This document shows positions 10,178 to 37,855 of a DNA stretch of 42,702 nt, piece by piece; position 1 is the stretch's first letter, and every line of letters starts with the position of its first letter. A model generated the notes under the pieces. The model saw nothing but the letters and a program-made list of their open reading frames with translations. It was not told where the DNA came from and did not search any database. The position numbers and the translations under genes were made by a program. Source of the DNA: an uncultured Eubacteriales bacterium (GTDB lineage: Bacteria > Bacillota > Clostridia > Lachnospirales > CAG-274); the NCBI GenBank assembly GCA_949738935.1, contig CATJCJ010000305.1, positions 1 to 42,702 of the forward strand. The letters run 5' to 3'.

Positions 10178-11491
10178 TTATTTCCCAATACAATGGTATA
10201 TGAATCCTAGTTCTTCCATTTCTTTTTTCTCATAGATGTTACGACCATCTAAAACAATTTGTTGTGCCATTGTTTTTTTGATTACTGCCCATGAAGGTAA
10301 CCGAAACTCTTTCCATTCGGTAACTAACATCAGAACGTCTGCATCAAGTACAGCATCATACATATCACGTGCATAATATATAGTGTCCCCTATCCTTCTT
10401 TTACATTCTTCCATGGCAGCGGGATCATATGCCCTGATATTACATCCGGCCTGCTGCAACTTATCTATAAGTACCAGTACTGGAGCTTCACGCATGTCAT
10501 CTGTTTCCGGTTTGAAAGCAAGTCCCCAGATAGCAATTGTTTTATTTTGCAAATCATTGCCAAATAGTTTCTGAAGTTTATCAAATAAAGCACTTTTCTG
10601 TATTTCATTCACTTCCTCTACAGCACGGAGCACACGCATATCATATCCATTTTGCTCTGCAGTCTTTATCAACGCTTTCACATCTTTCGGGAAACAAGAT
10701 CCTCCATATCCTATTCCCGGATAAAGGAATTTACGTCCGATACGAGTATCTGAACCAATACCGCTGCGTACCATATTTACATCGGCTCCTACAAGTTCAC
10801 AAAGATTTGCTATATCGTTCATGAAGCTGATACGGGTAGCGAGCATTGAATTTGCTGCGTATTTAGTCATTTCTGCAGAAGGAATATCCATAAAGATCAC
10901 CCGGAAGTTATTTAATAAGAACGGTTTATAGAGTTTACTCATGAGTTTCTTTGCACGTTCCGACTCTACTCCCACTACCACACGATCCGGACTCATAAAG
11001 TCACTGATGGCATTTCCTTCTTTTAGGAATTCAGGGTTTGAAGCAACGTCAAATTCTATTTTGACTCCTCTTTTATCCAGTTCTTCTTGAATGGCATTAC
11101 GGACTTTCTGAGCTGTCCCTACCGGTACAGTACTTTTGGTAACTACCAGTTTATATTTATTCATATTACGCCCGATTGTATGGGCTACGGCAAGGACGTA
11201 ACTGAGATCAGCACTACCGTCTTCATCGGGAGGTGTACCTACTGCACTAAAAATCACTTCTACATCATTTAAGCAACTTTCCAATGATGTTGTAAATCGC
11301 AATCGTTTTGACTTTGTATTCCGGAGTACCATTTCTTCCAACCCCGGTTCATAAATAGGAATGATACCTTTTTTTAATGTTTCTATTTTTTCACTGTTAG
11401 TATCAACACAAGTTACATCTACACCTATTTCAGCAAAACAAGTTCCTGTAACCAAACCTACATATCCGGTCCCTACAATTGCAATTTTCAT
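10178..11491 (-). CDS. ugd: UDP-glucose 6-dehydrogenase
   Basis: 437 aa; MKIAIVGTGYVGLVTGTCFAEIG, catalytic GIGYGGSCFPKDV, KPETDDMREAP. Confidence 0.96.
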   Translation of the reverse strand: MKIAIVGTGYVGLVTGTCFAEIGVDVTCVDTNSEKIETLKKGIIPIYEPGLEEMVLRNTKSKRLRFTTSLESCLNDVEVIFSAVGTPPDEDGSADLSYVLAVAHTIGRNMNKYKLVVTKSTVPVGTAQKVRNAIQEELDKRGVKIEFDVASNPEFLKEGNAISDFMSPDRVVVGVESERAKKLMSKLYKPFLLNNFRVIFMDIPSAEMTKYAANSMLATRISFMNDIANLCELVGADVNMVRSGIGSDTRIGRKFLYPGIGYGGSCFPKDVKALIKTAEQNGYDMRVLRAVEEVNEIQKSALFDKLQKLFGNDLQNKTIAIWGLAFKPETDDMREAPVLVLIDKLQQAGCNIRAYDPAAMEECKRRIGDTIYYARDMYDAVLDADVLMLVTEWKEFRLPSWAVIKKTMAQQIVLDGRNIYEKKEMEELGFIYHCIGK

Positions 11492-11515
11492 ATTTTGATG
11501 TTTTGTTTGAATGGA

Positions 11516-12070
11516 TTATACGAAATATTCAGCTTCTTGAAAAGTTTTAGCTTGTTTGTCCTTCTCAGACATAATAACTTGAGACTCAGCTATAGGCCAA
11601 TCAATAGCCAATGACGTGTCACAATATAATAAAGATGCTTCTGCTTGTGGAGTATATACATTATCCACTTTGTAAGTAAAAATAGCTTCTTCACTTAACA
11701 CCAAAAAACCATGAGCAAATCCACGTGGAATAAAAAACTGGCGTTTATTTTCTTCGGTTAGTAAAACACTGGCGTGCTTCCCAAATGTAGGTGATGATTT
11801 TCGTAAATCTACTGCTACATCAAGTACTTCTCCTTTTATGACACGTACCAGTTTTGCCTGGCTATATTCCCCTTTTTGATAATGTAAACCACGCAATACA
11901 CCGAATGATGATTTAGATTCATTATCCTGTATAAAATTTACTGGCCCAATGTATTTTTCAAACTCTTCTTTTTTAAAAGCTTCCATAAAATATCCTCTAC
12001 TATCAGAAAATACTTTAGGTTCTATTAACCATACGCCATCAATTTCTGTCTGTATGTAATTCATTATCAA
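11516..12070 (-). CDS. rfbC: dTDP-4-dehydrorhamnose 3,5-epimerase
   Basis: 184 aa; DNESKSSFGVLRGLHYQKG, FIPRGFAHGFLVLSEEA. Confidence 0.94.
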   Translation of the reverse strand: MIMNYIQTEIDGVWLIEPKVFSDSRGYFMEAFKKEEFEKYIGPVNFIQDNESKSSFGVLRGLHYQKGEYSQAKLVRVIKGEVLDVAVDLRKSSPTFGKHASVLLTEENKRQFFIPRGFAHGFLVLSEEAIFTYKVDNVYTPQAEASLLYCDTSLAIDWPIAESQVIMSEKDKQAKTFQEAEYFV

Positions 12071-13491
12071 AAACTTTTGTGAATCTTTAATTGAAACCCC
12101 AAATTATCACCATATATATCTCCAATATCAAAAGCTGTGGAACCGGTAAAGCTCCAACCTCGCCATTTACTTGGAATATATTTAAACTCTGCAAAGGTAG
12201 AAAAATTTTCTAAAATTTCAGGGATTGGTTTAAATGGGGTCCCCCAAGTACGATTGAAGGAAAGCTTTGCACGGTAGGTCCATTCAGAAGTAATATCTCC
12301 ACTCCAACCAAGATGAATCGCTTGTACACGATTATATAAAAATGCTAAATCTCCGTTTTTATTATATATAGGTGAAGTAATTAATGGATTACCTATACTC
12401 ATACCCCAATGTGTCCATCCTGGATACCAACCATTGTTGTAGTAATCATCAGCTCCTCCTGTTTTTTTTATAATAGAATTATCTAATCCATGTAATGGTC
12501 CACTTTGATTAGTAGTCTGGTAATATTCTAAAATAATACCATTAATAGCTTGTGTCTTTAAGTTCTTATATTCTATTCCCCAAAGTCCATCTAATCCATT
12601 TTGCTTTCCCATTCCAGAGAAATCATCATAATAATTTTCTAAATAGATACTAAATGATGTTTCTTTGCAATTGTATGTTAATCTAAAATGCTCACTTCCC
12701 ATATAGTTACCTTGATACCACGATTTATCTCCTTCAGCATTATCACCTCCTCCTTGAGGGATTAATGCATGGATATAATCTTTCCACCCATTACCTAAAT
12801 CACCTTCATCTGATCCTCCTACTTTATATCCTCCAAACTGATCATCTAAACTCATTCCTAAATCAAATTGCCATTTCCCTTGAGGTTTGCCAAAGCGGAA
12901 AAAAAAACTTTTATGATGATATTTTATTTTCTTTGTATAAAAATATTCCTTTCCTACATTCCTTTCTTGGTATTTTGTATCAGTGAACCAACCATATGAG
13001 AGTTCTGCTTTAACCTGAATTTTAGGAGCAATATGTATATAATCAAAGATTCCAATTGATATTTGAGGTAGTGGTCTTGCATTTCCTGACCATGTTAATC
13101 CTCCACTACTTAGTTGTTGATTTAGTAACGGAGAGTCCATTTCTCTGCTTCCTATCCATAAGCCAATCCATTTATAGCGAATATCAGCATAGGCTTGTTG
13201 TATAATAAAGGTTGAGGTAAAACCTGTTGCTGCAACGATATCAATTCCTCCTTTTAGTTGCCAAGCATGGGTTGTGTTCTTATAAAATGCCCCCCCTCTA
13301 ATATAGGTATTATTATTAATAGAAGATACCCCATGTGTATTGCTTACTTGCCATAAAGGAGTATTTTTACCAGCATGAACAGTTGCACCATACTCTGCAA
13401 ATGTACTAAAATTTTGGGCATATACGTAATCTCCTACTATTAGAAGGATTAAAAAAGAAAAAGTTATATATTTATTAGAGCTACTACACAT
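12067..13491 (-). CDS. Capsule assembly Wzi family outer-membrane protein
   Basis: 474 aa with signal peptide, alternating beta-barrel pattern, position in a polysaccharide cluster, RFGKPQGKWQFDLGMSLDDQFGGY. Confidence 0.75.
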   Translation of the reverse strand: MCSSSNKYITFSFLILLIVGDYVYAQNFSTFAEYGATVHAGKNTPLWQVSNTHGVSSINNNTYIRGGAFYKNTTHAWQLKGGIDIVAATGFTSTFIIQQAYADIRYKWIGLWIGSREMDSPLLNQQLSSGGLTWSGNARPLPQISIGIFDYIHIAPKIQVKAELSYGWFTDTKYQERNVGKEYFYTKKIKYHHKSFFFRFGKPQGKWQFDLGMSLDDQFGGYKVGGSDEGDLGNGWKDYIHALIPQGGGDNAEGDKSWYQGNYMGSEHFRLTYNCKETSFSIYLENYYDDFSGMGKQNGLDGLWGIEYKNLKTQAINGIILEYYQTTNQSGPLHGLDNSIIKKTGGADDYYNNGWYPGWTHWGMSIGNPLITSPIYNKNGDLAFLYNRVQAIHLGWSGDITSEWTYRAKLSFNRTWGTPFKPIPEILENFSTFAEFKYIPSKWRGWSFTGSTAFDIGDIYGDNLGFQLKIHKSF

Positions 13492-13494
13492 TAA

Positions 13495-14136
13495 TTATCG
13501 TTTTATCATTACTCCAATAGTACGAAGCATTATTTTTATATCCAAGAAAAGTGACCAATGTTGAATATACCATATGTCATAATTAACGCGCATCTTTACT
13601 CTTTCAATATTTCTTTCTCCACGAAGACCGTTTACTTGTGCCCATCCTGTAATTCCAGGTTTTACAGCATAACGTAAATAATAAGTGTCAATAGCATTCA
13701 TATATTCTTCGTCATGCACTAACATATGTGGCCTTGGACCAATAATTGACATATCTCCTTTTAGAACATTCCAAAATTGGGGTAATTCATCAATACTTGT
13801 CATTCGAAGGAAATTACCTAATAAATATCTGTTCTGATTAGGATCTACAAATTCATCTGATTTATTTTGAGCATCCATTGTCCTAAATTTATAACATGTG
13901 AATATTTTTCCATTTTTTCCAGTCCTTTTTTGACTAAAAAAAATAGGTCCGGGCATCCAAATTTTAATACAACTCCCTATAATTATATATATCCATGGAA
14001 AAAATATCACCAGGACTATCAAAGCAGCTATAATATCAAAAAAACGTTTTATCATTCTGCAACTATTCCGCGTAAGCGGAGTATTATTTAATAGAATATG
14101 TGTATTCATTTGTAGATATAACGTATCTATATTCAT
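13495..14136 (-). CDS. Undecaprenyl-phosphate sugar phosphotransferase (bacterial sugar transferase)
   Basis: 213 aa; KRFFDIIAAL, FRTMD, SIDELPQFWNVLKGDMSIIGPRP, KPGITGWAQVNGLRGE. Confidence 0.93.
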   Translation of the reverse strand: MNIDTLYLQMNTHILLNNTPLTRNSCRMIKRFFDIIAALIVLVIFFPWIYIIIGSCIKIWMPGPIFFSQKRTGKNGKIFTCYKFRTMDAQNKSDEFVDPNQNRYLLGNFLRMTSIDELPQFWNVLKGDMSIIGPRPHMLVHDEEYMNAIDTYYLRYAVKPGITGWAQVNGLRGERNIERVKMRVNYDIWYIQHWSLFLDIKIMLRTIGVMIKR

Positions 14137-14147
14137 TATATTGTTTT

Positions 14148-15239
14148 TTATACTAATGAATCATAAATATCTTTCGTTTGTTTGGATATACAATCCCAAT
14201 TATATAGCGTCATATTATATATACGAGAAGAGTGTTTCAGTTTTAATTTTGCTTCTAATTTATTTTTTAGGTCTTGTGAATCTCCACACTTAAAATAACA
14301 TGTAGTGGGTAAATCTACTTCTATATTGGCTGGGATATCACTTACTAACACATCACAGTTTAAATTCATAGCTTCTAACAGAGATATTGGAAGTCCTTCG
14401 TGATACGATGGTAAGACAAATAAACGTGCATAGTTATATAACTGAGCCAGCTTATCTTTTTGTATAAAACCTGTTAATACAACATTCTGTTCTTGGGCCA
14501 TTTTTTTTAATAATAGAGAATATTGATCTTCATGGTCTGCATCACCTGCAATCACCAATTTTATATTTTTATTCTCGAGTTTTTTGTATACGTCCAATAA
14601 TAAATCAAATCCTTTTTCTTTGACGAAACGTCCGACGGCCAAAATATAAGTATACTTTTCTAATCCTAACTGTGTAAGATAGTTATCATTTAACTGCGGA
14701 TATGTGAGGTTTACTCCGTTATACACAAGAGAAATGTTCTTCTGCATAGGATATTTTTTGTGAATTAGTTCATGAATATGTTTGGATATAACAATTACAT
14801 GATTAGCATATTTTACCCCCCATTTTTCTCCAAGTCTTAAAATTATTTTAGAAAACCTTCCCCATTTTTTTCGATCATAATCAGGACCGTGATGTGTCAT
14901 TACGGCTTTCATTCCTAATAATCTAACAATTGGTATTATTAGAGATGGGCCAACTGCATGGATGTGTACAATATCTGCATGAATTTTACGTGCATAAAGT
15001 ACTGCAATAAATGTATGTGTAAAAGCTTCTAAATGTTTTCCTGATAGAGTTAGAATGTCTTTAATAACCACCCCTTTATAATTATATACCTCATTCTTCA
15101 TTGACACATATTGAGGTCTACGTACAATGATGACTTGATGTTTGTCATCTACAATACGTGGAAACAATTCTTCGCAATGTGTTTCTATTCCTCCCTGAAT
15201 TTCAGGTATTCCTCTTGTACCAGTAACTACTATTTTCAT
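14148..15239 (-). CDS. Glycosyltransferase family 4-like
   Basis: MKIVVTGTRGIPEIQGGIETHCEELFPRI; YNGVN; VGRFVKEKGFDLLLD; LPSYHEGLPISLLEAM. Tracked ORF starts at 15287, but ATG 15239 forms an ATGA overlap with the upstream stop. Confidence 0.88.
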   Translation of the reverse strand: MKIVVTGTRGIPEIQGGIETHCEELFPRIVDDKHQVIIVRRPQYVSMKNEVYNYKGVVIKDILTLSGKHLEAFTHTFIAVLYARKIHADIVHIHAVGPSLIIPIVRLLGMKAVMTHHGPDYDRKKWGRFSKIILRLGEKWGVKYANHVIVISKHIHELIHKKYPMQKNISLVYNGVNLTYPQLNDNYLTQLGLEKYTYILAVGRFVKEKGFDLLLDVYKKLENKNIKLVIAGDADHEDQYSLLLKKMAQEQNVVLTGFIQKDKLAQLYNYARLFVLPSYHEGLPISLLEAMNLNCDVLVSDIPANIEVDLPTTCYFKCGDSQDLKNKLEAKLKLKHSSRIYNMTLYNWDCISKQTKDIYDSLV

Positions 15240-16255
15240 TTTTTGTTTAATTCTATTGAAATGGGCTTTCCTATTATGACATTCCATTTATTACGAACAA
15301 CCCATTGTAGTGGATAATAAATATATTTTTTCATTACAGGTGAAGCTGTACCTACCATCCAGCATTTTTTGGGGCAGTTTTTTACTTTCTGTCGAACCTT
15401 TTGAGCTTGTTCACTTTGCCATATTTCGTTAAAATTAGTTACTTTTTTAATGTTACCCATGCTTTCTTTCCAAATTTTTTCCTCAAGTCCATTACATGGG
15501 TAAACTTCTCCATATGGGTCAACAAAAAAATTTACTAATCCCGCTTCACAAGGGAGAAGTCTAGGATTATCTTGGATGTAGTTAATTAATCCCATATTAA
15601 AATAAGCTCTAAACCAAGATTTGGGATGTTTTTCTTTTAATTGCCATTTTATTAAGGTTTCGAAATCATTGCATACTTCTTTTTTGTTTATTATGTAATT
15701 ATCTTCTTTATGAAAATAATAAGAATTATGGAATGCAGCTGTAGCAAATTCCATACCTAATGATTTAGAAAGTTGATAAAGTGACAACATATCTGCTGAA
15801 TTATGGTTAGATACTGTAATACCAAATCCAATATCTTTTATTCCCATTTCTTTCAATTGTAGTAAAGTACGTAAACCTTTATCAAATCCTCCTGTACGCC
15901 CACGAAGATTGTCGTTCTTCTGTGATAATCCTTCAATACTTATACGTATTCCTATTTTAGGGAAGCGTTTCGCCATTTTCAGTATACGATCTTCAAACCA
16001 ACCTGATGTTGAAATAACAACTCTTTGAGATTTCCGAAAACATATTTTTATAATTTCTTCTAAGTCTTCTCGTATAAAAGGTTCTCCTCCTGTAATATTT
16101 ATAAATTTTACAGAAGGCAGTTTTTCTATTTCTGCAAGAGTAATTTCTTTATCTTTTAATGTTGGGTATTTCCAAATATTACACATTTGACATTGCATAG
16201 GACATCGATAGGTAACAATGATGCACATATCCGTAGGATTAGGTATAGTAGCCAT
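15236..16255 (-). CDS. Radical SAM protein with SPASM-like C-terminal cysteines
   Basis: CPMQCQMC (CxxxCxxC), NITGGEPFIREDLEEI; C-terminal CEAG...YPCNGLE...CPKKCW. Confidence 0.88.
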   Translation of the reverse strand: MATIPNPTDMCIIVTYRCPMQCQMCNIWKYPTLKDKEITLAEIEKLPSVKFINITGGEPFIREDLEEIIKICFRKSQRVVISTSGWFEDRILKMAKRFPKIGIRISIEGLSQKNDNLRGRTGGFDKGLRTLLQLKEMGIKDIGFGITVSNHNSADMLSLYQLSKSLGMEFATAAFHNSYYFHKEDNYIINKKEVCNDFETLIKWQLKEKHPKSWFRAYFNMGLINYIQDNPRLLPCEAGLVNFFVDPYGEVYPCNGLEEKIWKESMGNIKKVTNFNEIWQSEQAQKVRQKVKNCPKKCWMVGTASPVMKKYIYYPLQWVVRNKWNVIIGKPISIELNKK

Positions 16256-16380
16256 TTCTTTACTTTCTTTTGTTAGTCACTTATTAAATTGTTATTTTAA
16301 TCTAAACGTAAAAAAACGATAAAAATTATATTATTCATATGAAATTTTGCATAAATATATATTTAGTAGACTTTTGATTT

Positions 16381-16476
16381 CTGTAAGTATCCGATAAGGT
16401 GCACTGTATCAAATGGTTATATACTCGAAGCGGGAGATGCAGACATTTAGTATAGTGCACTTTATCGGATACTTAC
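16381..16476. repeat. 94-96 bp inverted-repeat element (MITE-like or structured RNA)
   Basis: GTAAGTATCCGATAAGGTGCACT (16383-16405) vs AGTGCACTTTATCGGATACTTAC (16454-16476), 22/23 complementary; flanked by GATTT at 16376-16380 and 16477-16481. Confidence 0.7.
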
Positions 16477-16554
16477 GATTTATCAAAGAATATCAAAAGT
16501 TAATTCATTACATATCAGGAAATAAATTTATTTTTAAAGGATGAGTAAGTTAAT

Positions 16555-17754
16555 TTATGATTCAAATTCATTTAAATAATCATTTGAAATTATGTCCCAA
16601 CTATATTTTTGTTCTATACAATTTCGTGCTTGCAGACTTTGAAACTTTTGTTTTTTTTCATCTAGAATAAAGGATATTTTTTTCAAAAAATCTGTTTCAT
16701 CTTCATAACATATACATCCGGATTTACCACTGTTAGGTAATTGTAAGCCTGATTTTGCACTAACTAAGACAGGAGTACCTGCAGACATTGCTTCTAAAAT
16801 AACTAGGCTAAACCCTTCTAAAGTAGAAGGAAAAATAAATGCTTTTGCTATGTTGTAGTATTCATTCAATTTTTTACCAGGTTGCAATTCTCCTACATAA
16901 ACAACTTGTTTACTAATATTATTGGTAAGAGAGAAACTATCTATAGCAGCTTTATAATTAGCTTCGATGATTCCACCTGCATATAAATAAATAATATCTT
17001 GATTTTCTTTCATTAATGGTAATAATAATTTAATAGCGGTGAGTTGATTCTTCCGTTCGCATACAGAACCCGCTTGAAAAAGTACATATTTATTTTCTAT
17101 ATTCAATTTTTTTAATATATTTTCTTTCTCAGTTTTTTCTAATGGATAGTATATATTTGTATTCACTCCATTTGCAATTAAATTTATTTTATTAGGATCA
17201 ATATTGAATTGTTGAGTAAGATGTTCTTGTGTTTTTTTATTTAAAACAAAGACTTTATCTGCATGCTGACAACAATAGATTTCTTGAAAATAGCGCTTAT
17301 ATACTATGTTCTTAATTTGCTCCCATTGTCCTTGCCAAATATAGCTGTGGTTTGTATATACAATAGTAATTCTTTTGCGTATTTTAGTTGAAGTTAATTT
17401 TAAGAAAAAATATAGATTATATTGGTTGTGAAAATGTAATATAATATTCTCTGATTGTTTAGAAAGCAACCGATGTAACTTATAAGTTAGCGATATAGAA
17501 TATAATACACGTTTTATTTTATGAATAATCCCCAGTTTTATATCTGTGGAAGTGAAAAAATGAGGAATATATGTTTCAATGATAGGTAAAGAAGTAATAT
17601 CTCTATTTTTATCTTTAATATCTATAATAGTAACATCGAGTTTTAACCTTAACATAGATTTTGTTAACTCTTCTACTACTATTTCTGTGGCTGCTCCCAT
17701 TTTCGCTGGAATGGAAGTGTATCCTGTTGCAACCTCAAATATTTTCATAATCAC
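16555..17754 (-). CDS. Glycosyltransferase family 4-like
   Basis: 399 aa; INLIANGVNTNIYYP, FQAGSVCERKNQLTAI, AFIFPSTLEGFSLVILEAMSAGTPVL. Confidence 0.87.
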   Translation of the reverse strand: MIMKIFEVATGYTSIPAKMGAATEIVVEELTKSMLRLKLDVTIIDIKDKNRDITSLPIIETYIPHFFTSTDIKLGIIHKIKRVLYSISLTYKLHRLLSKQSENIILHFHNQYNLYFFLKLTSTKIRKRITIVYTNHSYIWQGQWEQIKNIVYKRYFQEIYCCQHADKVFVLNKKTQEHLTQQFNIDPNKINLIANGVNTNIYYPLEKTEKENILKKLNIENKYVLFQAGSVCERKNQLTAIKLLLPLMKENQDIIYLYAGGIIEANYKAAIDSFSLTNNISKQVVYVGELQPGKKLNEYYNIAKAFIFPSTLEGFSLVILEAMSAGTPVLVSAKSGLQLPNSGKSGCICYEDETDFLKKISFILDEKKQKFQSLQARNCIEQKYSWDIISNDYLNEFES

Positions 17755-18964
17755 TAATAGCTTTATTGTATATATTCATTAATGTTTGATAATGTGTTTC
17801 AGAATTAAAATGTTTATTAGCAAATTCTTTAGCATTAATTGAAATCTCCTTATATTCTTCTTTTGATAAAGATAAAGCAACATTAATAATTCTTTCTAAA
17901 TCCTTTTTGTCGAAAGCTTTAAAAATAAAACCTGTTTTACCATCATTTATTATTTCAGGGATACCGCCTATTTTTGAACCTATAACAGGCTTTCCATATG
18001 TATAGGATTCTATGATTGTTAAGGGATTGTTTTCTGCACATTCTGAAGGTACGACTATAAATGATGCTTTTTCAATTTGATTATAAAGTTCTTTACCAGA
18101 TATAAATCCTAAAAAACAGACATTTTTAGGTGCTGTTTGTTTTAATATATTAAGTAAAGGTCCAATTCCTGCTATTTTGAGCTGAATATGTGGTAAGTTT
18201 TTCATGACTTCAACTAATGTACTAATTCCTTTTTCAGCTGTAATACGTCCATAGTAAAATAAATAATTTCCTTTGTCATAAGATCTATTTTGTTCAAAAT
18301 CAGGTAAGAAGTTGTAAAGAACAACACCTTTGTCTTCAAAATAAGAATGCCGAAGAGCATGCATCTTTTTAAAGTTTTCACTTAAGAAAATATATTGAGA
18401 AATATAAGCATTATAATTAAATATATATTCTTTATGAAACATTTCCATAGCACACATAACACTATTTATATAATCATCTTGATAGCACCGATGAAATGCA
18501 CAATTTAAAAACAATGTTTTAGGACACTTTTTACACCAATTACCTCGTAAATCAAAATATGATGATGGACAAATGAAACGAGTATCATGCATTGTAATGA
18601 CAATAGGTATATGATACTTTTTTAAGACTGGAAGAATGGATAAGGAAATTCCGTTAAATAAATTATGAATGTGGGCAATGTCTGGCCTTTCTTGCTTTAG
18701 AAGTTTATCTAGTTGTGATGCAGCATTTTTATTCATAAAAAAGCGAGGAATACTTTTTATTTTTTTCCAGACTCCATTTAAATTTCGTATTTCTGGTGCG
18801 TTTACAAAATAATCATCATATTGAGATGATAGATTATTGGGATGTTTGGTACAAAATGGAACAACTTGATGAGAATGATTTTCCAGCAATTTTATTGTAT
18901 TAAAGAAGACGCTATCAGCTCCGCCTTTTATATAATAATATTTATTGATTAGGAGAATTTTCAT
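17735..18964 (-). CDS. Glycosyltransferase family 4-like
   Basis: 409 aa; MKILLINKYYYIKGGADSVFFNT, YYGRITAEKGISTLVEV, VPSECAENNPLTIIESYTYGKPVIGS. Confidence 0.88.
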   Translation of the reverse strand: MKILLINKYYYIKGGADSVFFNTIKLLENHSHQVVPFCTKHPNNLSSQYDDYFVNAPEIRNLNGVWKKIKSIPRFFMNKNAASQLDKLLKQERPDIAHIHNLFNGISLSILPVLKKYHIPIVITMHDTRFICPSSYFDLRGNWCKKCPKTLFLNCAFHRCYQDDYINSVMCAMEMFHKEYIFNYNAYISQYIFLSENFKKMHALRHSYFEDKGVVLYNFLPDFEQNRSYDKGNYLFYYGRITAEKGISTLVEVMKNLPHIQLKIAGIGPLLNILKQTAPKNVCFLGFISGKELYNQIEKASFIVVPSECAENNPLTIIESYTYGKPVIGSKIGGIPEIINDGKTGFIFKAFDKKDLERIINVALSLSKEEYKEISINAKEFANKHFNSETHYQTLMNIYNKAISDYENI

Positions 18965-18987
18965 ATTTTATTCTATTAATAAAAAGA

Positions 18988-20100
18988 TTATTTACTTATT
19001 GCACTTTCAATAAATATTTTAATAATTTTATTTGCTACATTTTCGGTGGATAGCGTATTTCTTATTTTTAAACAATTATTTTTATAGGTGTTATCTTTAA
19101 CTATTTGTTCCAAGTCTTTATGATCCCATTGCTCTTTAGCTATTCCTAACTTATTTTTATTAATATAGTTAGCCAATGCAGGAATTGTGTTTGTTAATAT
19201 AGGAGTTCCTGATACAATTGCCTCTGGTATTGATACCATGTTTAAATCATTTCTGGTATCTATTAAAGAAGCGTAGGACTCTGATAAATATTTATTTAAT
19301 TGTTCATGACTCAAGAATCCTAGAAATACAACATTCTTATTTATATTTAAGTCTGAAACTAATTTTTGTAGCTCGTTTTTTAAAGGGCCACGTCCAGCTA
19401 TTAATAATATAAAATCAGAATATTCTTTTTGGCTTATGAAACGATGAAACTTGTATATAATACTATTTATATTTTTGCGATATATTAGCTGTCCAATAGT
19501 AATAAATTGTCTCGCTTTATAATCTGATAATTGAAATTTATGTATATTTATTCCATGATCGATAGGAACCTTTGAAATTTTATCTTTAGGTATATATTGG
19601 GAAATAAATGTGATTGCATTGTCCGAACGTCCTATTACTATTCTTATATGCCTAAAGAATAGAGGAACAATAACAGAATGCCATAAACGGGAAGGAACTG
19701 TGAACCATTTTTTTTGATGAGCAACTAATTCATGCCATATTATTGTTTTAGAAGGTGCGACTATTGCTGCAAAAAGTGAGTGAAAACCGAATATTTCGCT
19801 TGATAATATCATATCAAATTGCGAGGCATTTTTCTTTAGAAAAAGATACATTTCAATAGAAAAAGGTAAGGGGGATGGTAATATCTTTGCAAGATTATTT
19901 TTGAAAAATAATATTTCGAAATCATATACTTCATTTTCTGTTGGCTTGTAATCATCGATGGCTAATAACGTGATATTATGTCCTAAAGATTGAAATCCAA
20001 GGCACATATTATAAATCATAGTGTCTTTAATAGTATCAACTTTCGGTAATTTGTTTCCATCACCAGAAAAGAGTATAGGATTGATGATTAGTATTTTCAT
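18988..20100 (-). CDS. Glycosyltransferase family 4-like
   Basis: 370 aa; IGQLIYRKNINSII, LLIAGRGPLKNELQKL, VVFLGFLSHEQLNKYL, SIPEAIVSGTPILT. Confidence 0.82.
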   Translation of the reverse strand: MKILIINPILFSGDGNKLPKVDTIKDTMIYNMCLGFQSLGHNITLLAIDDYKPTENEVYDFEILFFKNNLAKILPSPLPFSIEMYLFLKKNASQFDMILSSEIFGFHSLFAAIVAPSKTIIWHELVAHQKKWFTVPSRLWHSVIVPLFFRHIRIVIGRSDNAITFISQYIPKDKISKVPIDHGINIHKFQLSDYKARQFITIGQLIYRKNINSIIYKFHRFISQKEYSDFILLIAGRGPLKNELQKLVSDLNINKNVVFLGFLSHEQLNKYLSESYASLIDTRNDLNMVSIPEAIVSGTPILTNTIPALANYINKNKLGIAKEQWDHKDLEQIVKDNTYKNNCLKIRNTLSTENVANKIIKIFIESAISK

Positions 20101-20109
20101 GTTATTTAG

Positions 20110-21405
20110 TTATTTAATATCTGTTTTTCTTATTTTATACCATAAAGTAATTGCCATTAAGGATTCTGCCAAAGTGTATGCAATGGCATAACCTGATATT
20201 TGAAAATATAAAATAAATATGTGGTATATACCACATGATATGAAATTCATGATAGTCATTGTATATATATATGTTTTTATACGGCGTTGAGTGAAGTATA
20301 ATTTAACCCAAACTTGACCAAATCCAATAAGCGGAAGAGAAAAAATTCCTATGCCGATAATTGTAGAAAGTTGCAACATAGCATTAGTCGGAATATTAGC
20401 TAATCCATATATGATATGAATAATAGGATATCTCATAGCATAAGTCAAAATTGCTATAATCAAGCCAATTATAAATATATTCCGTGCAATTTTTTGTGTA
20501 ATATTATATAATTCGCTTTCTTTTTTTTGAGCGTGAAGTTCATTTAATTTAACCTGAAGCACAATTGCAATTTGTTGCATAATGCCATAAGGGGCTTGAA
20601 TAAGTTTCATGGCATAATTAACAATGCTCACTGATCCTATTGGTAATTGTGAGAGTAGGTAAAAAGGATAAGTGGAGACAATGATAACAATGCTTTGATT
20701 GGCAATCAAGCCTAGAATAGGTTGAAAGGATGTTTTCAATAGTTTAAAATTCCATATTCGAAAATTCCAGTGTAGTATTTGCTTCATTTTATATATGAAA
20801 CAAATGAAAGCTATAAATGCTAAAGATAAAGCTCCTGCCATCATTGAAAATCCTCCAATTTGATTGTGGAATAAAAGTACTGACAGAATGATACATAGAT
20901 TTAAACCTAGATTTAATATAATAGGGGCAGTGAAATACTTATAGGAAACGAATATTTCAGCTAAAAAAGAATTTATAGATAATAATAGAGTTGTTGGTAA
21001 AAAAAGTAAATATATTAAATAATTATGTTGTATATCTTCTAAATTGAAGTTTGTAATTAGGGGCATAAATACTTTACCTATTATTCCTAGAAGAAACATT
21101 CCTAAAATTCCAATTCCAATCAATAATATAAAAAAAGAATTTAAATATTTCATTTCAGAAATATGTGATTTATTAATACGCATTTCCATAGAACGAGGTA
21201 TTAGTATCGAGGATGTAATAATTTGTATCATTCCTCCTATTAATATGGCAAGATTATATAAGTAAAAATGGATATCAGTAGTACTACTCACACCACAACA
21301 ATATACAATGCTAATCTGTTGTATAAAAGCTACTCCTTTTGCTATCAAACTTAGTAGAGAAGAAGATATTATTCCTTTTTTATATATATTATTTTTTTCT
21401 TTCAT
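20110..21405 (-). CDS. Polysaccharide flippase (Wzx/MVF-like)
   Basis: 431 aa polytopic; GVAFIQQISIVYCCGVSSTTDIHFYLYNLAILIGG; position among glycosyltransferases. Confidence 0.75.
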   Translation of the reverse strand: MKEKNNIYKKGIISSSLLSLIAKGVAFIQQISIVYCCGVSSTTDIHFYLYNLAILIGGMIQIITSSILIPRSMEMRINKSHISEMKYLNSFFILLIGIGILGMFLLGIIGKVFMPLITNFNLEDIQHNYLIYLLFLPTTLLLSINSFLAEIFVSYKYFTAPIILNLGLNLCIILSVLLFHNQIGGFSMMAGALSLAFIAFICFIYKMKQILHWNFRIWNFKLLKTSFQPILGLIANQSIVIIVSTYPFYLLSQLPIGSVSIVNYAMKLIQAPYGIMQQIAIVLQVKLNELHAQKKESELYNITQKIARNIFIIGLIIAILTYAMRYPIIHIIYGLANIPTNAMLQLSTIIGIGIFSLPLIGFGQVWVKLYFTQRRIKTYIYTMTIMNFISCGIYHIFILYFQISGYAIAYTLAESLMAITLWYKIRKTDIK

Positions 21406-22573
21406 ATTTAGAGGGTAGGACCATTCCTAATAGAATTAGAATAAATAAGCCACGGTTATGGGTAAATGTTGCATCAGCTACACCCTCTATTAGAAAAAAT
21501 AGTGATATTAATAGTGTGAAAAGAAATTGTTTCATATTTATAAAACGTTTTCTTGCTGATATCTTAATTATCCATGCCCAAAACGTAAAATAAAGTATTA
21601 CACCTATTATTCCAAACTGGGCTAATTCTGGATAATATGCATCTGATATAAAATCTGGTTTGTTTTTCGATAACCCCCAAAGTTGATCTAACCCGTACTT
21701 TTCATAAATAGAAGAATAATATTCTCCAGATACAAATGTTCCAAAGCTACCTAATCCACACCCAAATGGGAAATAATCCAAAAGAAGATAGAATGCAGTT
21801 AACATCATTGCAGGACGACTCCACATTTGGTGTGCATTTATACTGCCATCAATATAATAAATAACAATTTTTTCCCAAGATAAAGAAACAGCTAGACATA
21901 TTAACAATAACAAACATATAAATCCTTTTATATTAAAATATAGTTTTCCTCCTATTTTTAAATAGATCATCAAAAATATTGTAATACCCCAAAATCCATA
22001 AAATTTAGAACGTGTAGAGAGTAAACCAATACATAGTAAAATAAAAAATATAATTATATCTTCCCATGTGAATGAACTACAGTAAAAAAAAAGTAATGCT
22101 GTGATAGTTGCAGATGTTGCAAGGCGTGAAGGATGCCCAAAGAAATTCCACATATTTCCAGTCAATACTACTGCTAATGTTATTCCACCAACTATTAAAC
22201 AGATTATACTTATAATTTGCTTTTGCTTTTTGGTAAAAGTTGGGGCTATCAACCATGTACAATAAAATCCTAAAAATGGTTTTATTTGGATTACAAAGTC
22301 TTTCAAGATAGCTTGAGGAACATTTGAGGCTATAAGAAATGAATAAATTAGATAAAAGAGAAATATGCAAACAATTAATATTAATGGATATAATTCTTTA
22401 AAATTTTTACGTTCCCAAACTGTTATACCAGCAAATAAAATTAGGAAAAATGCCATAAGTTCATCGGTATAATCAAACTTCAGGAAATCATATAAAATAA
22501 CTCCGAAAACATATCCAAAAAGCAAGAAACAGAAAAAGAGATTATTTTTCGATAACACAATTTGCTGTATCAT
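21389..22573 (-). CDS. O-antigen ligase/polymerase (Wzy-like) membrane protein
   Basis: 394 aa polytopic; GLGSFGTF...DAYYPELAQFGIIGVILYFTFW matches the Wzy_C-type periplasmic loop. Confidence 0.78.
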   Translation of the reverse strand: MIQQIVLSKNNLFFCFLLFGYVFGVILYDFLKFDYTDELMAFFLILFAGITVWERKNFKELYPLILIVCIFLFYLIYSFLIASNVPQAILKDFVIQIKPFLGFYCTWLIAPTFTKKQKQIISIICLIVGGITLAVVLTGNMWNFFGHPSRLATSATITALLFFYCSSFTWEDIIIFFILLCIGLLSTRSKFYGFWGITIFLMIYLKIGGKLYFNIKGFICLLLLICLAVSLSWEKIVIYYIDGSINAHQMWSRPAMMLTAFYLLLDYFPFGCGLGSFGTFVSGEYYSSIYEKYGLDQLWGLSKNKPDFISDAYYPELAQFGIIGVILYFTFWAWIIKISARKRFINMKQFLFTLLISLFFLIEGVADATFTHNRGLFILILLGMVLPSKYERKK

Positions 22574-22578
22574 GTTTA

Positions 22579-24123
22579 CTATTCTTTTTTAGAAACAAAT
22601 ACTTTAAAACTAATTACTACTAATGATAAAACACATGTAATAATAAATGCAATAATAAGAACAATTGATTTTTTAGGAAATATAGGTTTATATGAACTAT
22701 ACGCTTTGTCTATGATTCTTCCTGCAATTTCATCAGGTGAATTAATTAATTCTTTTTCTTGTAATTTTTGCATCAAAAACAAATACATAGATTCCTTTAT
22801 TTTTTGTTGGCGTTTCATTTCTATAAACTCACGTTCCTGTGTTGGAAGTTTATCTACTTGTTTGCTCAACGTCGTATCTTTTTTATATAAAGCATCTAAA
22901 CTTATTTGTATATTATGACGCACACTTTCAACTGATTCAATTAACATTTTACGCTGTTCCCTCAATTGATTTTCTACTAACTGCAATGCAGGATTATTCG
23001 ATTCTGAAGATTGCAATAAACGCTGGCGATCTAATATTAGCTGATTATATATCATAATTGCTTTTTCTCCGGCGCCATCTACTATAGGAATAGCAGAATA
23101 TGCATTTGATGATTTTTTCATATATGCTAAAACATAATCAAGCATGCGCATACGGGTTTCCGTTTCTAAAATCGCCTTCTCAGTCTCTTTATTACCATAA
23201 TAAGTAATGCTACTATAGGCGCCTGGATCAGGCATTTTATTAATTTGCTTATATGTTTCAATCTGTTGTTCCAATATAGTTAATTCTAAGGTAACACTAT
23301 CTAAACGATCTTTAACAAATGCAGAGTTCAAATTTGCTTCGTTGACTTTTGTCATTCTCGAATATTGATTGTATCTATTCATTATTGCATTTAAAAGCTT
23401 ACATGCTCTTTGCTTATTAGTTGATTCGCAACTGAGTACTATAATGTCTGAAATAGTCTTGGAAGGGGTGACATATACTATTTTATCTAAATCTTCATAG
23501 ACTTTTTGTAAGGGGGATATTTGGGTAGTAAACGTACCGTTTCCATCTAACTGGCGAACGATAGTAATAGTTCCTACAGGTAAAACCATTTTAAAAGGTA
23601 TAGATTGATTTTCAAATACTATAGTTTCAAAAAGAGATGATTTTACAGTCGCTTTCTTTATTTTATTATCATCTACATTTAACCTTATATTAATAGGAGC
23701 ACTGATAGTATCTAATAATAACTTTGGAAAAATGTATGAAATAGGACATTCTTCTTTATCGAACAAAACATTTTTCAAATTCTTTTTTGTACTGGTTTCT
23801 ACTTGATATTCAGTTTGACGAATAACCTCTGCCAGATTATTACGTGACGTGATGATAAGAATTTCATTTTCGGTATTTACACCTCCACCGCCTCCTCCTA
23901 ATAATCCACCAATACCGGAGCTTTTTAACATTTTAAGTTCGGACATCATGCCTTGTTGTTCTCCCAGTAACTGCATTCGAGCAGTAATGTCGTATTTTTG
24001 GGGAGTTACTAATATAAAAACGATAGCACCTATTAAGCAAGTAATCCCAATAGGTACATATATTTTCCAATATTTGATAAATTGTTTCAATAATTCTCCG
24101 ACATGTATATTTTCGTCCGTCAT
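22579..24123 (-). CDS. Chain-length determinant (Wzz-like) protein without BY-kinase domain
   Basis: 514 aa; N- and C-terminal TMs, coiled coil, PTQEREFIEMKRQQKIKESMYLFLMQKLQE, ends just after the second TM; no Walker motifs. Confidence 0.87.
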   Translation of the reverse strand: MTDENIHVGELLKQFIKYWKIYVPIGITCLIGAIVFILVTPQKYDITARMQLLGEQQGMMSELKMLKSSGIGGLLGGGGGGVNTENEILIITSRNNLAEVIRQTEYQVETSTKKNLKNVLFDKEECPISYIFPKLLLDTISAPINIRLNVDDNKIKKATVKSSLFETIVFENQSIPFKMVLPVGTITIVRQLDGNGTFTTQISPLQKVYEDLDKIVYVTPSKTISDIIVLSCESTNKQRACKLLNAIMNRYNQYSRMTKVNEANLNSAFVKDRLDSVTLELTILEQQIETYKQINKMPDPGAYSSITYYGNKETEKAILETETRMRMLDYVLAYMKKSSNAYSAIPIVDGAGEKAIMIYNQLILDRQRLLQSSESNNPALQLVENQLREQRKMLIESVESVRHNIQISLDALYKKDTTLSKQVDKLPTQEREFIEMKRQQKIKESMYLFLMQKLQEKELINSPDEIAGRIIDKAYSSYKPIFPKKSIVLIIAFIITCVLSLVVISFKVFVSKKE

Positions 24124-24150
24124 AACTTTTAGATTTGAATTGAAATAAGT

Positions 24151-24954
24151 TTATTTTACTAATAATGCGATTGTTAATGAAGCTAATACAGAGATAGCAC
24201 TGACAATAGTAGATGCAACCGATATATTAAATTGGGCACTTTGGCTATATCTAGAGTTACTTTTTCGCGCTTTATTAGGTTCAACATATACAATATCATT
24301 TTGTTGTAAATAATAATAAGGCGAAGATAGCATCTCAGAAGATGTTAAATCTAATCGATGAAATTCTTTTTTTCCATTGTTATCACGGATTATTAACACA
24401 TTTGTACGTTCTCCATAAATAGTTAAATCCCCCGCCATACCAATTGCGTCAAGGATTGATATGCGTTCATTTGTTATAACCTTGGTGCCTGGAATATTTA
24501 CTTCACCTAAAACTGAAACTTTAAAATTCTGTATTTTAATAGTTACTAATGGAGACTTGGCATATGCAGAAATTTTCTCTTTCAAATTTTTAGCCAATTC
24601 ACTTCGGGTCTGCCCTACCACTTTTATTTTACCTAAAACTGGAAATTCAATATTTCCATTAGTATCTACTAAATAAGTTTGCATGGTTGGTGTAGCAGCT
24701 ACGTTTGTTTCACCAGGATTTAAATAACTCGTTAAAGGAAGGTTAAATACTGCCACTGAATTTGGATCAATACTGGAAACAAAAATAGATAGCTGATCAT
24801 CCGGACAAATTTTAGCTTCATAATTGACTCCATTTTCTGTCAATTGCCCTGAATTGCGTTGATTAAGATCTTGAAAATAAGTAATTTGATTGCTTGTCTT
24901 ACATGAAGTCAATAAGGCTATCAGAATAGCTGCGGTGACTATTTTTATTTTCAT
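24151..24954 (-). CDS. Polysaccharide export lipoprotein (Wza-like)
   Basis: 267 aa; lipobox LIALLTSC; YLVDTNGNIEFPVLGKIKVVGQTRSELAKNLKEKI; SVLGEVNIPGTK; DAIGMAGDLTIYGERTNVLIIRD. Confidence 0.92.
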   Translation of the reverse strand: MKIKIVTAAILIALLTSCKTSNQITYFQDLNQRNSGQLTENGVNYEAKICPDDQLSIFVSSIDPNSVAVFNLPLTSYLNPGETNVAATPTMQTYLVDTNGNIEFPVLGKIKVVGQTRSELAKNLKEKISAYAKSPLVTIKIQNFKVSVLGEVNIPGTKVITNERISILDAIGMAGDLTIYGERTNVLIIRDNNGKKEFHRLDLTSSEMLSSPYYYLQQNDIVYVEPNKARKSNSRYSQSAQFNISVASTIVSAISVLASLTIALLVK

Positions 24955-34339: not shown

Positions 34340-34377
34340 ACCGGCAGGAACTAATCATGTTCCTGCCGGTTTTTTTA
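34340..34377 (+). terminator. Rho-independent terminator after uxaC
   Basis: ACCGGCAGGAAC-taatcat-GTTCCTGCCGGT-TTTTTTT. Confidence 0.92.
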
Positions 34378-34387
34378 TATGAAACCA

Positions 34388-34417
34388 TTGTCATTTCTAT
34401 TTTATTCATTAACTTTG
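34388..34417 (+). promoter_or_regulatory. Promoter of orphan wza-wzc: TTG (34388-34390) - 19 nt - TAACTTTG (34410-34417)
   Basis: Close match to the Bacteroides promoter consensus; predicts TSS near 34424 and a ~300-nt leader. Confidence 0.65.
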
Positions 34418-34472
34418 CAGTCTGTTTAGAAACTTTATATAAAGGTTCTAAATGGTTACATATTAATTAGTT

Positions 34473-34670
34473 AGAAGCGTTTACGATATTATTCTTGTCA
34501 AGGAAATCGCCAATTTCAAAAGAGACACTGGAATAATAAGCAACAAAACGCTCATGCTCGCTGTATATCTACGAATGTATAGTTGGGCGTGGGCTGTTGC
34601 TTCATTATTTGTGTTTCGGGTGTTTGGCGATACCTCTTGACAGATAATGGCAACAGTTCCCACGCTTTCT
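34473..34670 (+). ncRNA. Candidate cis-regulatory RNA leader with mutually exclusive helices
   Basis: Alternative 1: 34495-34513:34624-34643 enclosing 34532-34544:34596-34609, outer helices 34488-34492:34644-34648 and 34473-34480:34662-34670. Alternative 2: 34587-34611:34641-34665. Confidence 0.6.
34554..34640 (+). CDS. Possible 28-aa hydrophobic leader peptide
   Basis: MLAVYLRMYSWAWAVASLFVFRVFGDTS*; lies within the alternative-fold region. Coding status unproven. Confidence 0.25.
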   Translation: MLAVYLRMYSWAWAVASLFVFRVFGDTS

Positions 34671-34685
34671 ATATATAATTAGAAT

Positions 34686-34708
34686 AGCTGGTGCGGGAAC
34701 CACCGGCT
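34686..34708 (+). promoter_or_regulatory. Hairpin 15 nt upstream of the orphan wza start codon
   Basis: AGCTGGTG-CGGGAAC-CACCGGCT, 8 bp with one G-U. Confidence 0.6.
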
Positions 34709-34722
34709 ACGAACAAACAGTA

Positions 34723-35514
34723 ATGAATCGAGCAGTTCAGGCTACCATGGTTGTAGCTTTGTGTCTTGTTGTCATGTCTTGTGCATCAAGCAGGCGGGTT
34801 GTCTATTTACAAGAGAAAAGTGTAGAAATACCGGAATCTTCCGTGGCTTTTGATGCCCGGATCATGCCAAAAGACTTAATAACCATTTCTGTCAGTACCC
34901 CCGAACCGGAAGCAGCTTTGCCATTCAATCTGATTGTTCCTTCTGCCCAGTCGGGCAACAGCCTTTCCAGTCTTGTCTCCCAACCTACATTGCAAAACTA
35001 TCTCGTTAACAATGAAGGGGAGATCTCTTTCCCTGTTCTGGGACAATTGAAAGTAGGCGGACTCACAACACAACAGACTTCTGAAATGATTATTTCACAG
35101 TTGCATAAGTACCTGAAAGAACCACCCATTGTTACCGTCCGTTTGATAAACTATAAAGTATCTGTCATAGGAGAAGTGAATCGCCCCAATATGTATACGG
35201 TGATTAACGAAAAGATAAATGTATTTGAAGCATTAGCTATGGCGGGCGATCTCACGATTTATGGAAGAAGAGATCGTATACGAATCATGAGAGAGGACAT
35301 CGACTCTCACCGGCATATTATTACACTGAATCTGAATGATGCCAATATCATATACTCACCTTATTTCTATTTGCAGCAGAATGACATTGTATATGTAGAA
35401 CCTAATAAAGCAAAGTCTCAAAGTGCCAATATCGGTTCTTCTACTACATTGCTGGTTTCTGTTACTTCTATTCTGATATCACTTGCCGGATTGATTGTTA
35501 ACATACTTCGCTAA
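34723..35514 (+). CDS. Polysaccharide export lipoprotein (second Wza-like)
   Basis: 263 aa; lipobox LCLVVMSC; YLVNNEGEISFPVLGQLKVGGLTTQQ; SVIGEVNRPNMYTV; AMAGDLTIYGRRDRIRIMRED. Confidence 0.92.
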   Translation: MNRAVQATMVVALCLVVMSCASSRRVVYLQEKSVEIPESSVAFDARIMPKDLITISVSTPEPEAALPFNLIVPSAQSGNSLSSLVSQPTLQNYLVNNEGEISFPVLGQLKVGGLTTQQTSEMIISQLHKYLKEPPIVTVRLINYKVSVIGEVNRPNMYTVINEKINVFEALAMAGDLTIYGRRDRIRIMREDIDSHRHIITLNLNDANIIYSPYFYLQQNDIVYVEPNKAKSQSANIGSSTTLLVSVTSILISLAGLIVNILR

Positions 35515-35524
35515 TTTAAAGATT

Positions 35525-37855
35525 ATGGAAAATAACCGAATGACGAATGACCCTGTTCAGGAACAGGAGATTGATTTAATTGAGCTTTTTTACAAACTTC
35601 TTGCCCGATGGAAGTGGTTCGTTGCTTCTCTTATTCTGGCATTGGCTGCTGCTTTTATTTATGTTCATTTAGTAACTCCTGTTTATCAGGCCTCTGCTTC
35701 CATTGTTATTAAGGAGACAGAGAATCAGAATAAAGTAGTTGACGAACTTTTTGCCATGGCAAATACCCAACTTCCTAATACAGGAACTCAGATTGATGAT
35801 GAAATGGAGATACTACGTTCGCGTTCTACCCTTTTACAGGTAGTCAATGAGCTTCGTTTGCATACGACTTATCGCATCAGAAAAAACTTCAGATACGTAG
35901 AAGATACTGCTTCACCATTGGTTGCTATTCTTGATGAAGCGGCTATGGATACTTTGACAGGAACTTTGCTACTGGAAATTGATAGTAAGAAAAGAGGATA
36001 TGTAGTGACTGCAGCATTAAATGATGTTTGCCGGACAACTGAGTTTACAGGGTTTCCGGTTACTGTTGAAACGCCCGCAGGAAAAGTGATGCTTCGTATG
36101 ACCAACGACCAGAGTGAATGGCCGGGAACTATGAAAATTATGATTTGCCGTCCTATAGATGCTGTGAAAAGTTGCGCATCACGTCTTTCCGTTAGTACCA
36201 TTTCTAAGAAAACATCGATTATTTCTCTTTCATACACGGATGTCAGTAAGCGCAGAGCAGAGCTTTTCCTTTCCAGATTGATTGAAATTTATAACCGTGA
36301 TGCGATGGAAGATAAAAACAAAGTGACAGGAAATACTTTGCAGTTTGTAACAGAGCGGCTTGATAGTATCAGTCGTGAACTGGGCTTTGTGGACAAGAAT
36401 CTGGAACGCTATAAACTGAAAGAGCGTCTTAGTGATATAAAAACCAACATGGTACTTGATCTTAATACAAATAATGAATACGAGAAGAAATTGCTTGATG
36501 TGGAAACACAATTGAACATGACTGCTTATATCTATGAATATTTGCAAGATAGTAACCATCCTTTTTCTTTATTACCCATTAATACCGGAATTGCAGATAC
36601 TGAACTTGCCAAATTAGTAAATGAGTACAATAAAGAATTGCTGGAGCGTGAAAGATTGTTGCATATAATGAAAGAGAATAATCCGGCTGTTATAAACCAG
36701 GGTATTAAGATTGACGCTTTAAGACGGAATGTGCTCAATTCGCTTTCAGGAATAAAAAATGGTTTACTGATAGCGCGTGACGATATTATGCAGAAAACAA
36801 ACTATTTTAATACCCGGATAGATAACCTGCCCAAACAAGAGAGAGAATTTAATAACATCGACCGTCAGCAACAAATTAAGGCGAATCTTTATCTGATGTT
36901 ACTTGAGCGCAGAGAACAGGCTGCTATCTCATTGGCTGCTACTATTAATAAAGCACGTATTATTGATGCGGCGCTTGCTGCTAATGCACCGGTAGCTCCC
37001 AAAAGTATGATGATTTATGCCGGAGCGAGCTTCATGTCTCTTGTGCTTACTGCCGGAATAGTTCTGTTTGGAGGAATTTTCCGTACTAAATTGACGTCAC
37101 TATCTGAGTTGGAAGCAATTGGTTTACCACAGGTGGGGACTATTCCACAGATGAATGATTCGGAACGGCAAGTTGAAGACGGTCGGAATGATGTAATAGA
37201 TGAAGCATTCAGGCGTTTGCGCAGTAACCTTCGTTTTATGGCCGAAGGAGATGATAAGAAATGTATTCTTGTGACTTCTACGATGAGTGCTGAAGGTAAA
37301 AGCTTTACGAGTATAAACCTGGCGCTGACTTTTGCTTTCCTGGGATGCAAAGTATTAATTGTGGGACTTGATATTCGTCGTCCGAGACTCGCTGATTTTT
37401 TTAAGATTAGAAACGAACAGGGAATGACTAATTACCTCTCCGGGAGTGAAGTGTCCCTGGATAGCATTATCTATCCTTCCGGCATTCATAAAGACCTGTT
37501 TGTGCTTCCTGCAGGTCCTGTACCTCCCAATCCGGCAGAACAATTGGAAAAAGAAAAACTTAGGGTAGCCTTTGATTATTTGCGTAAACAATTTGATTAT
37601 ATTATCGTCGATTCGGCTCCGGTAGGTATGGTGAGTGATACATTGAGCCTTGGAAAGATAACGGACTTCACTCTCTATGTATGCCGGTTGAATTATACAC
37701 CTAAAAAGGCTTTGTCAATCATACGGGATTTGGAATCGGGTGGTCAGTTGAATCGTATTTCCATATTGGTAAACGGGTACAATATGTCTGATGAAAAATA
37801 TGCTTATGGCAAGTACGGTTACGGATATGGCTATGGGCATAAAAACAATAAATAG
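35525..37855 (+). CDS. Wzc-like polysaccharide co-polymerase with BY-kinase domain
   Basis: Wzz domain, Walker A MSAEGKSFTSINLA, Walker A' VLIVGLDIRRPRLADFF, Walker B YIIVDSAPVG, Tyr cluster YAYGKYGYGYGYG. Start reassigned from 35495 to ATG 35525 (MENNRMTND). Confidence 0.93.
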   Translation: MENNRMTNDPVQEQEIDLIELFYKLLARWKWFVASLILALAAAFIYVHLVTPVYQASASIVIKETENQNKVVDELFAMANTQLPNTGTQIDDEMEILRSRSTLLQVVNELRLHTTYRIRKNFRYVEDTASPLVAILDEAAMDTLTGTLLLEIDSKKRGYVVTAALNDVCRTTEFTGFPVTVETPAGKVMLRMTNDQSEWPGTMKIMICRPIDAVKSCASRLSVSTISKKTSIISLSYTDVSKRRAELFLSRLIEIYNRDAMEDKNKVTGNTLQFVTERLDSISRELGFVDKNLERYKLKERLSDIKTNMVLDLNTNNEYEKKLLDVETQLNMTAYIYEYLQDSNHPFSLLPINTGIADTELAKLVNEYNKELLERERLLHIMKENNPAVINQGIKIDALRRNVLNSLSGIKNGLLIARDDIMQKTNYFNTRIDNLPKQEREFNNIDRQQQIKANLYLMLLERREQAAISLAATINKARIIDAALAANAPVAPKSMMIYAGASFMSLVLTAGIVLFGGIFRTKLTSLSELEAIGLPQVGTIPQMNDSERQVEDGRNDVIDEAFRRLRSNLRFMAEGDDKKCILVTSTMSAEGKSFTSINLALTFAFLGCKVLIVGLDIRRPRLADFFKIRNEQGMTNYLSGSEVSLDSIIYPSGIHKDLFVLPAGPVPPNPAEQLEKEKLRVAFDYLRKQFDYIIVDSAPVGMVSDTLSLGKITDFTLYVCRLNYTPKKALSIIRDLESGGQLNRISILVNGYNMSDEKYAYGKYGYGYGYGHKNNK

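Follow-up and report, generated by a model that had tools for sequence, protein, structure and literature searches.

The question raised by this locus is whether the long, structured 5′ leader in front of a wza-like gene and its wzc-like neighbour is a regulatory RNA, and if so, of what kind. Judging from its pairing and conservation, we think the leader represents a new multi-copy family of cis-acting RNAs of the Bacteroidia that would work as a bistable four-strand switch, a reading to which we give a probability of roughly 55%. The DNA analyzed was a contig of 42,702 nt, called the window below, in which the leader and everything belonging to it lie on the plus strand. The promoter that the original prediction had placed ahead of the leader was found in the sequence (34388-34417), with a TTG −33 element (34388-34390), a 19-nt spacer and the −7 box TAACTTTG (34410-34417). 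A strong intrinsic terminator of the upstream uxaC unit (34340-34370), a 12-pair stem with a T run, lies outside the leader, and the leader therefore begins its own transcript. It comprises a 5′ part of similar length in homologues (34424-34472), a conserved RNA core of about 200 nt delimited by our covariance models R1 and R2 (34473-34670) and the U-rich tract TTTCTATATAT (34666-34676). Pfam domains identify the genes that follow as a wza-like polysaccharide export lipoprotein (Poly_export, SLBB; 34723-35511) and a wzc-like co-polymerase/tyrosine kinase (Wzz, GNVR, AAA_31; 35495-37852). Elsewhere in the window, on the minus strand (10178-24954), is a polysaccharide cluster that has wza- and wzz-like genes of its own as well as Wzi, a sugar transferase, glycosyltransferases, a dTDP-sugar epimerase and a UDP-glucose/GDP-mannose dehydrogenase; this second wza-like gene (24154-24954, minus strand) has no copy of the leader RNA.

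The assembly holding the window is assigned to a different genus from the one its genes point to. The uxaC of the window is 95% identical to that of Bacteroides compared with 46% to that of the assigned genus, and a second uxaC, of the assigned-genus kind, is present on contig 366 of the same assembly. By this comparison the contig (window 1-42702) is Bacteroides DNA misbinned into the assembly of another genus, which explains why no copies of the leader turned up in the genomes that the assignment would make its relatives. Pattern matches in two genomes (G131 and G216) were rejected as leader copies, being short unrelated hairpins.

Four strands of the core, s1 (34475-34494), s2 (34531-34559), s3 (34585-34612) and s4 (34640-34667), would exchange partners between two folds. 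Fold 1 is a long rod in which s1 would close on s4 (34475-34480:34662-34667 and 34488-34492:34644-34648), s2 would pair with s3 (34532-34537:34604-34609, 34540-34544:34596-34600 and 34550-34559:34585-34594), and helices a (34495-34502:34636-34643), b (34506-34513:34624-34631) and c (34522-34527:34612-34617) would zip the halves together, with s4 staying outside any GC-rich hairpin. Helix a has the strongest covariation in the family, and folding of the leader places an AU-rich hairpin at the apex (34560-34584). Fold 2 consists of two hairpins, s1:s2 (34476-34482:34546-34552 and 34487-34494:34531-34538) and s3:s4 (in which 34659-34665, 34651-34656 and 34640-34649 of s4 pair with s3), each with a small inner hairpin, A (GAAAU-CGCCA-AUUUC, 34503-34517) or B (GGGUGU-UUGGCG-AUACCU, 34618-34635); s3:s4 would form a GC-rich, terminator-like hairpin directly before the U-rich tract. 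The strands of helix b are the loops of hairpins A and B and are mutually complementary, and these loops may form a kissing pair in fold 2. Most of this architecture agrees with the original prediction, whose fold-1 helices (both s1:s4 segments, 34495-34513:34624-34643 and 34532-34544:34596-34609) and fold 2 (34587-34612:34640-34665) do pair. Absent from it were helix c, the 34550-34559:34585-34594 segment of s2:s3 and the whole 5′ half of fold 2, both segments of s1:s2.

The leader is not confined to this contig. The closest wza orthologues, in B. stercorirosoris, B. timonensis and B. cellulosilyticus, share 70-72% protein identity, and the leaders ahead of these three orthologous wza-wzc pairs are 84% identical at the DNA level to that of the window over approximately 285-300 nt. 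A plasmid search recovered the core at 73% from Parabacteroides distasonis, upstream of a 122-aa hypothetical protein. Model R1, built from these five sequences (the wza-leader copy, the three Bacteroides orthologues and P. distasonis), matched 44 of 61 genomes in the genus of B. cellulosilyticus, mostly with several copies each. Model R2, built from 55 diverse copies, found 28 copies in Bacteroides sp. GM023, 19 in genome G457, 13 each in B. bouchesdurhonensis and Phocaeicola massiliensis, 10 in B. cellulosilyticus, 6 in B. fragilis Q1F2, 5 in Prevotella communis, and a single copy in both B. pyogenes and the window's own assembly. R2 also matched 54 of 149 genomes taken from across the order and 27 of 149 from across the class (the latter at E ≤ 1e-4), often in a compact form of ~160 nt. 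The family numbers at least ~150 distinct copies, with 1-28 per genome in the genomes searched closely, and by these model matches the leader belongs to a multi-copy family spread across the Bacteroidales and other Bacteroidia. A search of a phage collection gave no match to the leader.

Some copies occur as tandem pairs about 200 nt apart on one strand (L165 3501-4123, L171 3501-4124 and L172 1201-1817). The AT-rich genomes represented by loci L217-L236 have the compact form of 160 nt, in several cases just 170-420 nt away from the end of a contig, and this position suggests that surrounding repeats break the assemblies. Short hairpins with the UUGGCG loop and a similar stem were also seen in an unrelated genus (L093 1501-1519, L094 1501-1519) and are probably an independent repeat or due to chance.

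Variation among the copies allowed us to ask whether both folds are under selection. An all-pairs covariation analysis of a MAFFT alignment was limited by misregistered variable helices and was replaced by a per-copy swap test on the 35 copies below 72% identity. Own partner strands paired better than those of other copies for a, b, c and s1:s2 (p ≤ 1.2e-7), s3:s4 (p = 9e-9) and s2:s3 (p = 4e-8), with p > 0.5 for all four control pairings, and a sliding-window version of the test (1,711 comparisons) recovered the same helices. In alignment A6, 84.3% of fold-1 cells are paired, with 357 double-change cells compared to 145 ± 10 after shuffling (0/500), and 84.5% of fold-2 cells are paired, with 170 double-change cells compared to 70 ± 8.5 (0/500); slid registers on the same alignment drop to 36-49% paired cells. 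When changes were placed on a tree of 143 copies, compensatory events on the same branch numbered 14 for s2b:s3b, 12 for s3b:s4b, 7 for s1b:s2b and 13 for s1b:s4b, compared with 0-4 in slid registers, and exceeded the slid controls for s1:s2, s3b:s4b, s3m:s4m, s2b:s3b, s1b:s4b, a and b. The hand-set registers for c, s3t:s4t and s2m:s3m in this count were wrong, and all registers are covered by a blind scan for compensatory double changes over 16,653 five-pair windows. Helices of both folds are among its best well-paired windows, which include a, b, c, s1:s2, hairpin A, s3:s4, hairpin B, P1, P3 (s2b:s3b) and s2:s3.

The GC-rich stretch 34585-34594 retains two partners, 34550-34559 in fold 1 and 34659-34665 in fold 2, so that s2:s3 is a conserved antiterminator-type helix that covaries and excludes the terminator-like hairpin by sharing s3 with it. 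Since the same s3 columns covary with both s2 and s4, which is impossible for one static fold, the comparative evidence indicates that two mutually exclusive helix sets are maintained by selection. The original prediction asked for conservation and covariation in homologous leaders, and on this point it survives: both of its folds covary far above shuffled and slid controls and have been kept by evolution. Its description of fold 2 as terminator-like also holds up, since s3:s4 covaries and in 93 of 104 copies a U-rich tract comes after it. A tree-aware all-pairs test reached E ≤ 0.05 for a and b only, with s1:s2 borderline (E = 0.75) and s3:s4 not detected at E ≤ 1, and the AU-rich part of s1:s4 (34488-34492) did not covary. 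In the ~160-nt relatives from other lineages, helices a, b and c and the s2:s3 hairpin behaved in the same way, with s1:s2 and s3:s4 less well supported, and RNAalifold on five sequences returned the rod only, this alignment being too shallow.

The surroundings of the copies mark them as transcribed leaders, by the placement of promoter and gene. The Bacteroides −7 box TAnnTTTG is found within 120 nt upstream of 87 of 104 copies compared with 9.6% of random stretches, and lies 63 nt from the core start in the five wza copies. The 3′ end is U-rich (at least 5 T in 8 nt) in the 93 copies mentioned above, and in 75 of 96 scorable copies the dominant ORF that follows has the same orientation as the RNA, starting a median of 58 nt past the core. 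Conserved leader peptides were not found, and ATG uORFs are rarer than in mononucleotide-shuffled sequence (28 of 87 copies compared to 51 ± 5); leader-peptide attenuation was rejected because no uORF is conserved. The genes that follow are very diverse. Among 64 downstream proteins, 78 Pfam families were identified, none in more than three proteins, and no common function pointing to a signal or ligand emerged. Examples include lipocalin-like lipoproteins, outer-membrane barrels, histidine kinases, PEGA and DUF1266 proteins, RHS, wza, an MmeI-type restriction enzyme and an amylase. Given this diversity, we rejected a capsule-specific or UpxY leader as a general explanation. The original framing as a wza-wzc or capsule-specific device is not supported; the window's second wza-like gene also lacks a copy, the family is not confined to polysaccharide operons, and no link to UpxY emerged. 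In several Bacteroides genomes a family of small proteins (79-88 aa), function not assigned, is encoded directly 3′ of the RNA (L126, L136, L145, L102, L109, L112, L120, L141 and L255).

Folding energies bear on which state would be the default. The 299-nt leader folds at −103.5 kcal/mol compared to −65.6 ± 4.5 for 200 dinucleotide shuffles (z = −8.4, 0/200 as good), and the Parabacteroides homologue gives z = −7.8. With the rod energy approximated as duplex energy plus a loop term, fold 1 was lower in 98 of 100 full-length copies by a median of ~10 kcal/mol, and before s4 is made it was preferred in all 100 by a median of ~22 kcal/mol. Minimum-energy folds of the growing transcript form s1:s2 until about 34585 and then the rod. 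Because fold 1 is preferred even before the terminator is made, the terminator state would not be the equilibrium default, and termination would need a signal, factor, ligand or kinetic trap.

Most likely, then, the leader is a conditional attenuator acting by four-strand exchange. The s3:s4 hairpin of fold 2 would end transcription, and fold 1, through s2:s3 with a, b and c, would prevent termination and give read-through into the gene as the thermodynamic default. A ligand, a protein or pausing would stabilise s1:s2 or the A/B loop contact and bring about termination. A counterpoint is that the fold-1 rod likewise ends at the U-tract. Considering the range of genes it precedes and the two exclusive folds kept in it, the leader is probably a general-purpose genetic switch. 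A broader proposal, which we hold at about even odds, is that these RNAs form a portable, signal-responsive class of leader in the Bacteroidia that had gone unrecognised. Such a switch, exchanging four strands and carrying complementary loops on its hairpins, would put as many as ~28 unrelated genes in a genome, many for surface or secreted proteins, under one common cue.

The two folds could also be read out at translation, which is possible though we think it unlikely. A short strand, s5 (GGGAAC, 34695-34700), lies 23 nt before the wza start and is the complement of GUUCCC in s4 (34656-34661). As s5 can pair with s4 and the complementarity covaries (swap test, p = 2.5e-5), s4:s5 might hinder ribosome loading, with fold 2 locking s4 in s3 and freeing the start region, and the U-tract would be incidental. 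In 86 of 104 copies the duplex has an energy of −7 kcal/mol or lower, and the median distance from s5 to the start is 31 nt. However, the U-tract is retained in 93 of the 104 copies, several copies have no s5 or a distant start, and in the minimum-energy fold of the window s5 prefers a local hairpin.

Returning to the exchange of strands, it could be dispensed with if the RNA were a compact three-dimensional element, a four-way junction of P1, s1:s2, s2:s3 and s3:s4 with the A/B loop contact, that targets RNA polymerase in the manner of the processive antiterminator RNAs put and EAR. Shortening each of these helices allows all four to be drawn as a single junction, and gene-independent use would fit action on the polymerase, but s3b retains two full-length partners with separate compensatory events, and there appears to be no steric room for s1:s2 and s3:s4 beside a coaxial rod of a, b and c; we regard this alternative as improbable. 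We are equally doubtful that the element is an independent small RNA that stops at the U-tract, with the downstream gene incidental or reached by read-through. It does have its own promoter, a terminator-like end and, like the FopS sRNAs, many copies, but the usual same-strand gene a short way downstream, the complement of s4 sitting between core and start codon and the orthologous position at wza kept in five genomes all speak for a leader. If the RNA were instead a spreading palindrome of the MITE or REP type, without any part in regulation, this would account for the many copies, the long hairpin, the tandem pairs and the copies near contig ends in fragmented assemblies. That reading is already disfavoured and very improbable: promoter distance and strand are fixed, compensatory changes occur in both exclusive helix sets, most paralogues fall far below 80% identity, and the copy at wza has been retained vertically.

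The four-strand attenuator is a familiar design, and the question remains how far this family departs from known systems. No Rfam 15 family reached its gathering threshold at the element, in the window or in 29 loci holding copies, and nothing credible appeared in the leader down to E = 10; this check, called for by the original prediction, supports a novel structured leader. We did not find the family in the literature searched, and an earlier unnamed listing is possible, supplements and subscription papers having been outside the search. The leader is thus a new RNA family in which the 1:2, 2:3, 3:4 strand logic is known from attenuators and the gene-independent, multi-copy use is unusual. 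As in trp-type attenuators, four strands are arranged so that 2:3 excludes 1:2 and 3:4, and a GC-rich 3:4 precedes the U-tract; unlike them, the family has no leader peptide, precedes unrelated genes and adds helices a, b and c, loop complementarity and the s1:s4 closing helix. The UpxY/UpxZ-controlled capsule leaders are likewise long, precede polysaccharide genes and come from the same genus, whereas our family is not tied to such genes, and no NusG-like or upxY gene was found among the 19 window proteins scanned. The EAR/epsC (RF01735) and JUMPstart/ops (RF01707) RNAs are also structured leaders before exopolysaccharide genes, but the present family has no Rfam match, a different architecture and gene-independent use. 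6S RNA, considered after the Parabacteroides match, shares the long interrupted hairpin of ~200 nt but was rejected on copy number and position, the family being present 1-28 times per genome and 5′ of genes. The Bacteroidetes 6S model, 6S-Flavo, gave no match over its cut-off in 8 genomes, a weak result since it also misses a Bacteroides control.

These leaders matter because little is known about cis-regulatory RNAs in Bacteroides, where many long 5′ UTRs lack an explanation; in B. thetaiotaomicron, 13.5% of mRNAs have a 5′ UTR above 100 nt (PMC7366714). That one RNA class precedes as many as 28 unrelated genes in a genome suggests that a dominant group of gut bacteria has a global regulon at the RNA level, and the two folds are defined well enough for the design of direct tests. 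Another multi-copy Bacteroides RNA family is FopS (RF04319), a set of paralogous sRNAs of ~70 nt that act in trans through a single-stranded seed followed by a terminator (PMC11697453). Our family differs in that its members are leaders of 160-230 nt, and they give no match to RF04319. A second paralogous RNA family, described near transposases in the same study, is not the leader family, its context being different. Two FopS genes do lie near one leader copy (L129, 10585-10651 and 13612-13678).
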